Under the pieces are notes generated by a model that was not told the origin of the DNA, made no database searches, and saw only the letters and a program-made list of their open reading frames with translations. The position numbers and the translations under genes were made by a program. A stretch of DNA of 50,274 nt from Ruminococcus sp. (GTDB lineage Bacteria > Bacillota > Clostridia > Oscillospirales > Ruminococcaceae). Shown one piece after another: positions 11,850-15,143 of the stretch (its first letter is position 1; the number at the start of each line of letters is the position of its first letter). Location: positions 1 through 50,274 of the forward strand of contig JAFUQX010000041.1 of NCBI GenBank assembly GCA_017472145.1. The letters run 5' to 3'.

Positions 11850-11890
11850 ATCCGCAGGAAACATCTTTTTGGATGTGTCCTGCGGATGAT
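11850..11890. terminator. Bidirectional terminator between ktrA and the carboxypeptidase-like gene
   Basis: 16-bp stem, 11850-11865 with 11872-11887, one mismatch, 6-nt loop, T-rich sequence downstream on both strands. Confidence 0.9.
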
Positions 11891-11898
11891 TTGTTTAT

Positions 11899-13386
11899 TT
11901 ATTTTTTATCCTCCGGGTTTTTATGGTAAAATACCGGATCGGAGCGTTTCCATGCTTTTTTCTGCTGGGCTGGCGTATTTGGATTGGAATCAGGGGGCAT
12001 TACGTGGACGGCCTCCATGGCCTCCTGCTTTCTATGCGCTTCATAAGCGGAGTAGATGCAGAGGATAATGTACGCCAGAGAAATAATGCAGGCAAAAAAC
12101 AGGCTCAGATGGAAGGTAGAGCCAAGTCCGTCCTCTGTAAAATAGGTGATGAATGCATTTGCATTATGCTTTACAGCGGAACGGTTTACATCGCTGACGG
12201 CCACAAGATCTACACTGGCGATGACATCGTTTGAAAACTTCAGATCCAGCCGGCCCAGAACATCGCCCTCCTTGATGGGAGCGGTGATATTTTCATTATA
12301 GGTCGGAACACGCTGAATCGCAGTGATATCCACATCTGTGCACCAGAGAATGGAAAGAGATTCCTTCGGCCGCACCAGTACAAAGTCGTTTCCATTGGAA
12401 TCCAGTACCGGAAGCTCTGCGATCTCCTCATCATCTCCGATGAGGGTCGTGTACTGGAAGCTGGAAAAGGCCCAGTCCAGCAGATTTGTAGCATCTACGA
12501 TGTGATAATACTGAAGCTCACCCTCTACATCATCAAAGGGAGCGGCCAGCAGCACGACCAGATAGGTAATGCCGTCTCGTGTGGCCATGGTTACGATATT
12601 CCGGCCGTAGTTATTCAGATTGCCGGTCTTGATTCCCTTTGCACCCTCGTAGTAGAACAGATTCTCAGTGGAGGTCATTGTGTTGGCATGCTCCCAGGTC
12701 CAACCGTTGAGGGCGTATTCAATAGAAGTGCTCTTGGATGAGGTAGAGAATCTGTCTGCGGTTGCGATCTCACGGAATTGAGGAACCTTTTCCAGTGCAT
12801 ACTGTGTGATCAGCATCATATCACGGGCCGTGGTGATCTGATATGTATCGTAGAGTCCTGTGGGATTTGTAAAATGGGTTCCCGTACAGCCGATCTCTGC
12901 GGCCTTCTGGTTCATCATTCCGATAAAGGTATCCAGGCTTCCGCCGCCTGCGTGGATGGCCAGAATATGAGCGGCTTCACAGCTGGAGGTCAGCATCATG
13001 GCATAGAGATATTCTAAAACAGTCAGTCTGTCTCCCGAGCCGATTCCGGCGTAGCGGATGTCATCGGCCTCCTCATAATTCTGGAAAAGGGTATTCGGGT
13101 TGACGGACATGGGAACGGTAGTCTGATCAATATTCTCACAATTTTCCAGCACGATGATGGCCGTCATGATCTGGGCCAGATGAGCCGGCATTTCCTGCCG
13201 GTCTGCATTTTTCTCGTAGATAACGGTGTTGGAATCCATATTGAGCACAATACCGGATTGACTCTCAATGGTAAAGGGCGGTGTAAAGGCATAGCCCTCC
13301 GCTGTCATGCTGCATGGAATCAGGAGACTGAAAACCAGAGAGAGAACCAGAACCGGGCCTAAAAGGCGGTGAACAATTTTCTTCAT
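11899..13386 (-). CDS. D-Ala-D-Ala carboxypeptidase-like protein lacking catalytic Ser and Lys
   Basis: 495 aa. Export signal at residues 1-30, serine-type D,D-carboxypeptidase (DacF/S11) domain at about 35-290, a second domain to about 420 (IKEGDVLGRLDLKFS, as in the PBP5 C-domain), one membrane helix at about 430-450 and a cytoplasmic tail. The family active-site box P-A-S-x-x-K is here PAHLAQIM: His69 replaces the nucleophile Ser and Gln72 the Lys. The SxN-like site is SSC (134-136). KTG is intact (253-255, GIKTGNLNNYG). Such a protein can fold but should not acylate, so a structural or regulatory role in cell-wall synthesis is likely. The frame is otherwise intact. TTTACA-16-TATAAT lies upstream. 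Confidence 0.85.
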   Translation of the reverse strand: MKKIVHRLLGPVLVLSLVFSLLIPCSMTAEGYAFTPPFTIESQSGIVLNMDSNTVIYEKNADRQEMPAHLAQIMTAIIVLENCENIDQTTVPMSVNPNTLFQNYEEADDIRYAGIGSGDRLTVLEYLYAMMLTSSCEAAHILAIHAGGGSLDTFIGMMNQKAAEIGCTGTHFTNPTGLYDTYQITTARDMMLITQYALEKVPQFREIATADRFSTSSKSTSIEYALNGWTWEHANTMTSTENLFYYEGAKGIKTGNLNNYGRNIVTMATRDGITYLVVLLAAPFDDVEGELQYYHIVDATNLLDWAFSSFQYTTLIGDDEEIAELPVLDSNGNDFVLVRPKESLSILWCTDVDITAIQRVPTYNENITAPIKEGDVLGRLDLKFSNDVIASVDLVAVSDVNRSAVKHNANAFITYFTEDGLGSTFHLSLFFACIISLAYIILCIYSAYEAHRKQEAMEAVHVMPPDSNPNTPAQQKKAWKRSDPVFYHKNPEDKK

Positions 13387-13448: not shown

Positions 13449-13476
13449 ATTATACCAAAAAAAAAGCGATTGTAAA
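13449..13476 (-). promoter_or_regulatory. Promoter of the carboxypeptidase-like gene
   Basis: On the minus strand TTTACA (13471-13476), 16-bp spacer, TATAAT (13449-13454), about 60 bp from the start. Confidence 0.75.
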
Positions 13477-13653: not shown

Positions 13654-14358
13654 TTGGTTTATGTAACAGGAGACACACACGGAGATTACGAACGCTTTCA
13701 GGATCCGCTGCTCAGGAAGCTCAGCGAGGAGGACACGCTAATCATCTGCGGGGACTTTGGCTTTATCTGGGACGGTACACGGCAGGAGCAGGCGATTCTG
13801 AAGAAGCTGAGCCAGAAGAAATATACCATTGCATTCATTGACGGATGCCATGAGAATTTCGACCTGCTGGAGCGGGACTATCCGCTGGTTCGCTGGAACG
13901 GGGGAATTGCCCGTGAAATTGCACCCAATATCATTCATTTGCAGCGGGGGGAGATCTACACCATCGAGGATGAGACCTATTTCACCTTCGGCGGCGGTCA
14001 CAGTCAGGATATCGAATACCGCCAGGAAACGGGAAACTGGTGGAAGCGGGAGCAGCCGACGCACAATGAGATCCGTCATGCCATTCATAAGATGAATCAG
14101 CATCATTCCAAGGTGGACTATATCATCACCCACGAGCCGCCGGCCTCCCTGAAGGATTGCCTGGGTGTGGATGTGCAGCAGCGCCTGGAGATCCACACCT
14201 TCTTTGAGGATCTCATCAAGGAGTGTGAATATAAGAAGTGGTTCTTTGGCAAGTGTCACATGGATCGGTTTATTCCCATGAAATATTATGCCGTTTTTGA
14301 GGAGATCCTCTCGGTAGAGCAAAGACGCCGGAGAGGCCTTTTCGGCAGAAGAAGGTAA
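13654..14358 (+). CDS. Metallophosphoesterase (calcineurin-like)
   Basis: 234 aa, TTG start preceded by AGGAGG with 8-base spacing. All metal-binding motifs are visible: GDTHGD (residues 6-11), CGDFGFIWD (about 36), the GNHE box as GCHENFD (Cys for Asn at the second position), GGGHSQD (about 111) and ITHEPP (about 158). A late GKCHMDR segment replaces the usual GHxH. The enzyme should hydrolyse phosphomonoesters or diesters with two bound metals; the substrate is unknown. The Cys and GKCH variants are departures from the consensus that are worth modelling. Monocistronic, behind a structured leader. Confidence 0.85.
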   Translation: MVYVTGDTHGDYERFQDPLLRKLSEEDTLIICGDFGFIWDGTRQEQAILKKLSQKKYTIAFIDGCHENFDLLERDYPLVRWNGGIAREIAPNIIHLQRGEIYTIEDETYFTFGGGHSQDIEYRQETGNWWKREQPTHNEIRHAIHKMNQHHSKVDYIITHEPPASLKDCLGVDVQQRLEIHTFFEDLIKECEYKKWFFGKCHMDRFIPMKYYAVFEEILSVEQRRRRGLFGRRR

Positions 14359-14405: not shown

Positions 14406-15143
14406 CTATATACTGAGGAATGCACCGTTTACATAGCCGGTGACTCCCTGGAAGAAAATCACATACCAGTCTCCGGTCTGGCCGTAGACGGTGACGTTTG
14501 CGCCGTCGGGAATCGAGCCGATGATCCGGCCATTCATGGAAGGGTAGCTCCGGATGTTGAGGTTGCTTCCTCCGGCGGTGACTGTGCCCATGCGGATCGG
14601 CCCTGCACTGACGAAGGGGATTCCGAAGTAGTCGCAGAGGGACTGAACCAGATTGACAGCAATGGCATTCAGATTGCCTTTGATCCATGCAGCATCCTCC
14701 GGGTTGTCGTGGTAGCCGATTTCACACAGGACGGCTACGGCCTTGGTTTGCGTGACCTCGCCCAGGGAGGTCGTAGGACGCGGGTTGCTCTTATCCGGCA
14801 GAGGATAGATGGATTTGAAATTGTTGGCAATGATGGTAGCCAGCAGCTCGCTGTCCGCACTGGAAGGGGCATAGTAGATGTCGATTCCCCGGAGCTGCCC
14901 GGAGAGGGATTCGGGGGCGGCGTTGCTATGGAGTGCAAGGTGCACATCAAAATGACCAGCGTTGGAATCGGCAATTGCACCCGCTGCACCACGGGCCGGG
15001 TCATTCCGGCGGAAGGCAATGCCGCTGGAGCGCAGGTATGGCTCCATGCGGTCAGCAATTTCATTCATATACTGTTCTTCGTTACCGCCGTTGACATAGG
15101 GATTCCATTCCTGAGTGGATGGACTTAAAAACACACTTGGCAA
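14406..15143 (-). CDS. N-acetylmuramoyl-L-alanine amidase with C-terminal SH3 domain
   Basis: 245 aa, TTG start with GAGGT 8 bases upstream. Amidase_3 domain at about residues 3-175 cleaves the MurNAc to L-Ala bond of peptidoglycan using zinc. The start FLSPSTQEWN and GGNEEQYMNEIADRM belong to the variant in which the first zinc His of LDPGHGG is replaced; the second zinc His (LHSNAAPE) and catalytic Glu (VLCEIGYHDN) are conserved. A bacterial SH3 domain (about 182-245, LNIRSYPSMNGRIIGSIPDGANV) should bind the wall. No signal peptide is seen, so export is by lysis, by another route, or inside the forespore space. It lies 97 bp after tgt on the same strand. Confidence 0.85.
   Translation of the reverse strand: MPSVFLSPSTQEWNPYVNGGNEEQYMNEIADRMEPYLRSSGIAFRRNDPARGAAGAIADSNAGHFDVHLALHSNAAPESLSGQLRGIDIYYAPSSADSELLATIIANNFKSIYPLPDKSNPRPTTSLGEVTQTKAVAVLCEIGYHDNPEDAAWIKGNLNAIAVNLVQSLCDYFGIPFVSAGPIRMGTVTAGGSNLNIRSYPSMNGRIIGSIPDGANVTVYGQTGDWYVIFFQGVTGYVNGAFLSI

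Follow-up and report, generated by a model that had tools for sequence, protein, structure and literature searches.

Is a DD-carboxypeptidase homologue that lacks both catalytic residues a gene in decay, a reading error or a protein kept for another job? The question is raised by the gene at 11899-13386 (minus strand) of a 50,274 nt stretch of Ruminococcus sp. DNA (contig JAFUQX010000041.1), which we call the window. The gene starts with ATG and encodes 495 amino acids (aa) without internal stops; a whole-domain profile match (Peptidase_S11, PF00768, 9e-37) and the fold place its product in family S11, and a PBP5_C stalk (PF07943, 2.2e-9) with a C-terminal membrane anchor gives it the architecture of penicillin-binding protein 5 (PBP5). 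Codons CAT CTG GCC CAG (13182-13171) read H69-L70-A71-Q72 where intact relatives carry S-x-x-K, so the SxxK box of active S11 DD-carboxypeptidases is absent. The KTG box is intact at aa 253-255 and the second motif is present as SxC, not SxN. On balance, sequence comparison leads us to favour, with some reserve, a selected, membrane-anchored PBP5-type pseudo-carboxypeptidase, probably a non-cleaving binder of the stem peptide or of a partner.

A first-pass annotation made from the letters alone had described the replacement of both Ser and Lys, the retained KTG, the clean frame and the preservation of the whole fold and anchor. All of this stands, the last through the Pfam matches, a hydropathy peak on the Kyte-Doolittle (KD) scale and a C-terminal helix predicted by AlphaFold2 (AF2). 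Two features had escaped it: the SxC form of the second motif and the spread of the loss over a whole clade.

Loss of the catalytic pair across a clade

Within the window's genus the gene was found in 15 of 16 genomes, its own included (E ≤ 1e-70), and the box in the 14 others reads HLAQ in nine, HLVQ in three, and HLTQ and QLIQ in one each. A wider alignment held 218 distinct relatives plus the window protein, active-site boxes being read from a subset of the genomes with matches. The tree of 216 rows (distant paralogues L001-L003 left out) is a quick LG+G4 inference with support from the Shimodaira-Hasegawa-like approximate likelihood ratio test (SH-aLRT) only, and its long branches were flagged (L222, and L178, which joined L252). 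It places the window protein in one clade of 104 rows (SH-aLRT 99), in which the catalytic Lys is absent from every row (Gln 53, Asn 49, Asp 2) and the Ser from 73 (Pro 34, His 15, Gln 11, Ala 11, Thr 1, Tyr 1), leaving 31 that retain it. Of the 112 rows that fall elsewhere in the tree, 106 have both residues, five are without the Lys and one is without the Ser alone. The 106 rows called intact are defined by the presence of Ser and Lys; the clade is not so defined. Clade loci with genome handles come from 51 genomes besides the window's own (10 coded genera, one family), with Ruminococcus callidus and several records assigned to R. flavefaciens among the named members. The intact homologues come from more genera (106 genomes, 66 coded genera), a difference for which subtree lengths correct only in part.

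Family alignment, the check that the first-pass annotation had proposed, thus shows the substitutions to be recurrent. The two outcomes it had named as contrary to its reading, a sequencing error at the box and homologues that all retain SxxK, are contradicted by the similar boxes in 14 of 14 congeners and by the 104-row clade, respectively.

When the motif columns and the other changed-site columns were removed, the 31 clade rows of a thinned 84-row tree remained monophyletic (100/99), and the Lys state required four changes. A single clade for all Lys-less proteins was rejected on this tree (approximately unbiased test, p-AU 1.3e-49), a value that holds only if the group was named beforehand and that comes from a tree whose bootstrap had not fully settled. 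The three further Lys-less lineages are L160/L161/L163 (ALVD), L238 (SLAM) and L178 (YLAQ), the last placed less surely because of its long branch. Order-level relatives carry other lesions: L263 has lost the Ser and kept the Lys (AMVK, with RSG), and L260 combines STVK with GAN and NYG.

Selection and the altered cleft

Purifying selection on the clade is as strong as on its intact relatives. The median ratio of nonsynonymous to synonymous divergence (dN/dS, NG86 method) was 0.070 over 47 close clade pairs and 0.098 over 20 intact pairs (domain identity ≥ 0.72, dS 0.05-1.5; pairs non-independent). For the window protein itself, one of four pairs tried was measurable, that with L036 (dN 0.107, dS 1.26), and three were saturated. 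With its catalytic residues lost, its fold predicted to be kept, purifying selection and presence across species, the protein has the hallmarks of a pseudoenzyme. The first-pass claim of selection and not decay is upheld by the clade-wide absence of Lys, the low dN/dS and the open frame, together with the promoter-like site and hairpin described below. Decay or sequencing error, for which we found no supporting point, has to face the open frame, the congeners' boxes and this dN/dS, and its probability is practically nil.

Changes were counted site by site with parsimony on the two subtrees (total length 27.5 for the clade, 49.2 for intact rows). Released sites in the clade are Ser69 (17 changes) and Gly255 (16 against 0 in intact rows); intact rows show no change at Ser69 and Lys72, but this is uninformative, since those rows were labelled by the two residues. 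Ser134, Asn235, Lys253 and Thr254 show zero changes in 104 rows. The former Lys position changed at least six times inside the clade, among Gln, Asn and Asp only, which suggests that a polar side chain is still needed there. Could the Ser kept by 31 of the 104 members still acylate, with one of these residues in place of the Lys? Such residual conventional activity is very improbable, as the window protein has His, 73 members have no Ser and 17 changes are inferred at the site. We infer that the window protein has no DD-carboxypeptidase activity.

Other positions became newly fixed. His295 and Trp348 are present in 104/104 clade rows, with no changes there against 29 and 24, respectively, in intact rows; Asp109 changed twice (against 26), Ser135 once (against 13) and Asn256, found in 97/104 rows, six times (against 24). 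Arg111 occupies 93 of the 103 clade rows with a letter (Ser is the residue in 101/106 intact rows), and Cys443, in the transmembrane (TM) helix, occupies 95 of 101 (three changes against 47).

Some of these sites coincide with substrate contacts. In the complex of Escherichia coli PBP6 with pentapeptide (3ITB), contacts include S40, G81, R194, T212 and M208 (PMC9320039). Transferred to PBP5 by equal spacing from the catalytic Ser, G81 corresponds to G85, T212 to H216 and R194 to R198. PBP5 G85 and H216 align to Asp109 and Asn256 of the window protein, so that two substrate-contact positions would carry clade-specific residues, a third being the lost nucleophile. PBP5 R198 aligns to His233, and His is also the commonest residue in intact rows (52/106); the R194-equivalent contact was therefore already different before the loss. 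One reading of the changed contacts is a pocket adapted to a new ligand.

In the mechanism that we favour, an ancestral S11 DD-carboxypeptidase would have been converted in place by loss of the nucleophile Ser and the general base Lys. Its altered cleft may bind the stem peptide or a related carboxylate ligand non-covalently, while the PBP5_C stalk and TM helix would hold the protein near the membrane. There it could shield pentapeptides or position a partner enzyme, leaving the cutting to other S11 proteins. Each of the eight genomes examined (the window's and seven others) encodes one or more further S11 proteins in which SxxK and KTG are intact and the second motif is SGN, SGA, SGG or SGC. 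Inactive proteins of the PBP5 type are able to exert effects. In E. coli lacking PBP4, PBP5, PBP7 and PBP6b, inactive PBP5(S44G) and PBP6b(S63A) worsened cell shape, and the authors suggest that PBP6a may protect some pentapeptides (PMC4916385).

Several points weigh against a ligand-binding cleft. Dead PBP6a(S66A) had no effect in that same E. coli mutant (PMC4916385), and an equally good reading of the two changed contact positions is that the protein has stopped binding pentapeptide. Position 255 drifts to Ala, Ser or Cys, position 136 varies (Cys in 56/104, otherwise Val, Met, Ile, Ala or Tyr) and position 176 has mostly changed from His to Thr, which could mark a pocket relic; Cys at the third place of the second motif is also found in 61/106 intact rows. 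The newly fixed sites were chosen after inspection. His295 has no PBP5 alignment and Trp348 lies in the stalk domain, locations that may serve a protein interface.

The whole cleft could also be a relic, selection acting instead on surfaces (around His295, in PBP5_C with Trp348 and in the Cys443-bearing TM helix) by which a cell-wall enzyme or the divisome would be held. The invariance of His295 and Trp348 in the clade, in contrast to their variability in intact rows, fits such a pure protein-protein scaffold, as does the low turnover of Cys443. An Amidase_3 gene lies within 2.3 kb at 14 of the 43 clade loci whose flanks were long enough and at none of 49 intact loci with the same flank, and E. 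coli PBP4 depends for localization on its non-catalytic domain, not on activity, and binds the amidase activator EnvC (PMC9166362). However, a relic cleft does not obviously require Ser134, Lys253 and Thr254 to stay unchanged. Moreover, the amidase gene occurs in two arrangements (e.g. L091, L096, L109), and one of them (down_opp) accounts for 13 of the 14 cases, which may thus reflect few events. We judge the scaffold unlikely, though far from negligible.

The same invariant residues admit a different view, in which Ser134 and Lys253, with Ser135 and Asn256, form a new reactive centre for another substrate. All four are fixed or nearly so in the clade, the latter two unlike intact rows, but Ser134 and Lys253 are also kept in 105/106 intact rows, where Ser69 and Lys72 would do the chemistry, and the adjoining Gly255 position drifts. 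We know of no precedent for a rewired centre of this type and consider it improbable. A broader proposal, which we put forward tentatively, is that one ancestral DD-carboxypeptidase locus was turned at least four times into a non-canonical protein and that the Ruminococcus-clade cleft was rebuilt (Asp109, Arg111, Ser135 and Asn256 around invariant Ser134, Lys253 and Thr254) to accommodate a different cell-wall ligand, possibly as its receptor or as a rewired Ser-Lys centre.

The locus and its origin

The locus is of the same, ancestral kind in dead and intact forms. A metallophosphoesterase is the next upstream gene, on the opposite strand, in 48 of 81 loci (80 fetched plus the window). By neighbour calling with homology-ranked genes, an adjacent divergent phosphoesterase accompanies 62 of 95 counted altered rows (58/90 in the main clade and 4/5 among the independent losses, L238 having none) and 35 of 100 counted intact rows (40 at any distance); no such neighbour was found in 28/95 altered and 60/100 intact rows. 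These counts omit 13 of 108 altered and 6 of 106 intact rows, which either lacked a focal hit or gave no hit with fewer than 900 bases upstream. The clade profile gives one match per matching listed genome at E ≤ 1e-90 and two in G084 and G091, with only about four candidates scored per genome. The shared locus type and single copies therefore favour conversion in place over decay of a spare copy, and the most likely origin is an S11 DD-carboxypeptidase whose intact form occupies a like locus in related genera. A duplicate that decayed beside an intact sister is not supported, given the single clade-profile matches and the intact form at a like locus elsewhere.

Comparison with an intact copy in the same genome, also proposed by the first-pass annotation, gave four further S11 genes, of which three retain SxxK and KTG; these are distant paralogues and not sisters of the dead gene. 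One paralogue, L003 (G000:C51:2694-3806), has TxxK, in which Thr replaces Ser and the Lys remains, with NAG in place of SxN and KAG in place of KTG, and its near relatives (L266-L278, L285) show T-, S- or Y-xxK, NAN and mostly KAG, KAS or KAC. Such proteins may form a second altered S11 group in the same bacteria. Another, L004 (G000:C48:4567-5238 region), joins ASMTK, SGC and KTG boxes to a type I dockerin (PF00404, 3.8e-6), suggesting a cellulosome-linked DD-peptidase.

Table 1. Features of the pseudo-carboxypeptidase gene and its surroundings, in window coordinates.
Feature	Position	Strand	Basis
Pseudo-DD-carboxypeptidase (S11 + PBP5_C + C-terminal TM helix), 495 aa	11899..13386	-	Open reading frame, Pfam, AF2, structure comparison
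N-terminal signal/anchor region, aa 1-31, helix aa 2-21	13294..13386	-	AF2 secondary structure only
Former SxxK box, now H69-L-A-Q72	13171..13182	-	Alignment to PBP5 S44 and K47
SxN-equivalent S134-S135-C136	12979..12987	-	Ser134 in 104/104 clade rows; Ser135 in 100/104
KTG box K253-T254-G255	12622..12630	-	K and T in 104/104 clade rows; G in 47/104, else A, S or C
C-terminal TM helix, aa 427-445, with clade-specific Cys443	12052..12108	-	KD peak 2.5; AF2 helix 421-457
Promoter-like site TTTACA-16-TATAAT, in 267-bp divergent intergenic region	13449..13476	-	Consensus match only
Terminator-like hairpin 3′ of the gene, then T-rich sequence	11850..11887	-	-24.1 kcal/mol, z -6.8
Divergent metallophosphoesterase gene, recurrent neighbour of intact and pseudo forms	13654..14358	+	PHROG 1649, 1.1e-28
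N-acetylmuramoyl-L-alanine amidase (Amidase_3 + SH3_3), context only	14406..15143	-	Domain matches

The promoter ascribed to the gene by the first-pass annotation is there as a promoter-like site, with an 11/12 consensus match and TG before the -10 element. A scan of the 2-kb stretch returned five promoter-like sites against a mean of 2.7 (sd 1.9) in shuffles, so that only its high score distinguishes this one. The terminator-like hairpin was not reported by a simple terminator scan. The metallophosphoesterase gave no match to Pfam or NCBIfam at 0.001. It lies on the other strand and separates the amidase gene from the pseudo-carboxypeptidase gene, and for this reason an operon of the two is not supported.

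The roles first suggested were scaffolding of cell-wall enzymes, non-covalent binding of beta-lactams and sensing of muropeptides. Beyond the TM helix lies a short, basic tail, with a median of 33 residues in the 105 altered rows (the clade plus L263) and 19 in the 106 intact rows, counting only rows with a clear TM peak. A Pfam search of the window protein's tail found no domain. Both speak somewhat against a sensor with its own cytoplasmic signalling domain. The protein also matches PHROG 5304 ('peptidase', 4.1e-48) over aa 18-414, and similar S11 proteins thus appear to occur in phage records.

Relation to known proteins

Pseudoenzymes are already known as a kind. A clade-wide, repeatedly evolved S11 pseudoenzyme found no description in the open-licence literature among the matches listed. 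MEROPS has a class for non-peptidase homologues, described in a text from which the term S11 is absent (PMC4702814). The usual view of PBP5-type DD-carboxypeptidases is that they are enzymes, and from a profile match the window protein would be classed as one too. In this branch of gut and rumen Ruminococcus-like bacteria, catalysis is separated from whatever other role the protein has: the Lys is gone, the Ser drifts, the rest is constrained and new positions are fixed. Recurrence of the loss in other lineages, with the same divergent neighbour in most of their rows, suggests that a non-catalytic role may have been present already in the parent enzyme. Natural dead versions make the non-cutting roles of PBP5-type proteins directly testable; engineered counterparts exist in Acinetobacter baumannii, where Ser-to-Ala PBP5/6a and PBP6b serve as catalytically inactive mutants (PMC13059705).

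The window protein differs from E. coli PBP5 (DacA) and from other S11 DD-carboxypeptidases in having His and Gln for PBP5 Ser44 and Lys47. At the places matching PBP5 G85, S87, G111 and H216 the clade carries other residues, most of them fixed. The Streptomyces K15 DD-transpeptidase, an active SxxK enzyme, aligns (1skf, 262-residue chain; comparison via VIA-align) with nothing beyond the S11 region of the model, aa 34-309. In related genera, intact relatives (e.g. L020-L023, L025-L035) have the same architecture and, in some rows, the divergent phosphoesterase, but keep SxxK. EnvC, whose LytM domain is degenerate, differs in fold and family from S11; the likeness lies in its being a non-catalytic protein of enzyme fold that acts on peptidoglycan enzymes.
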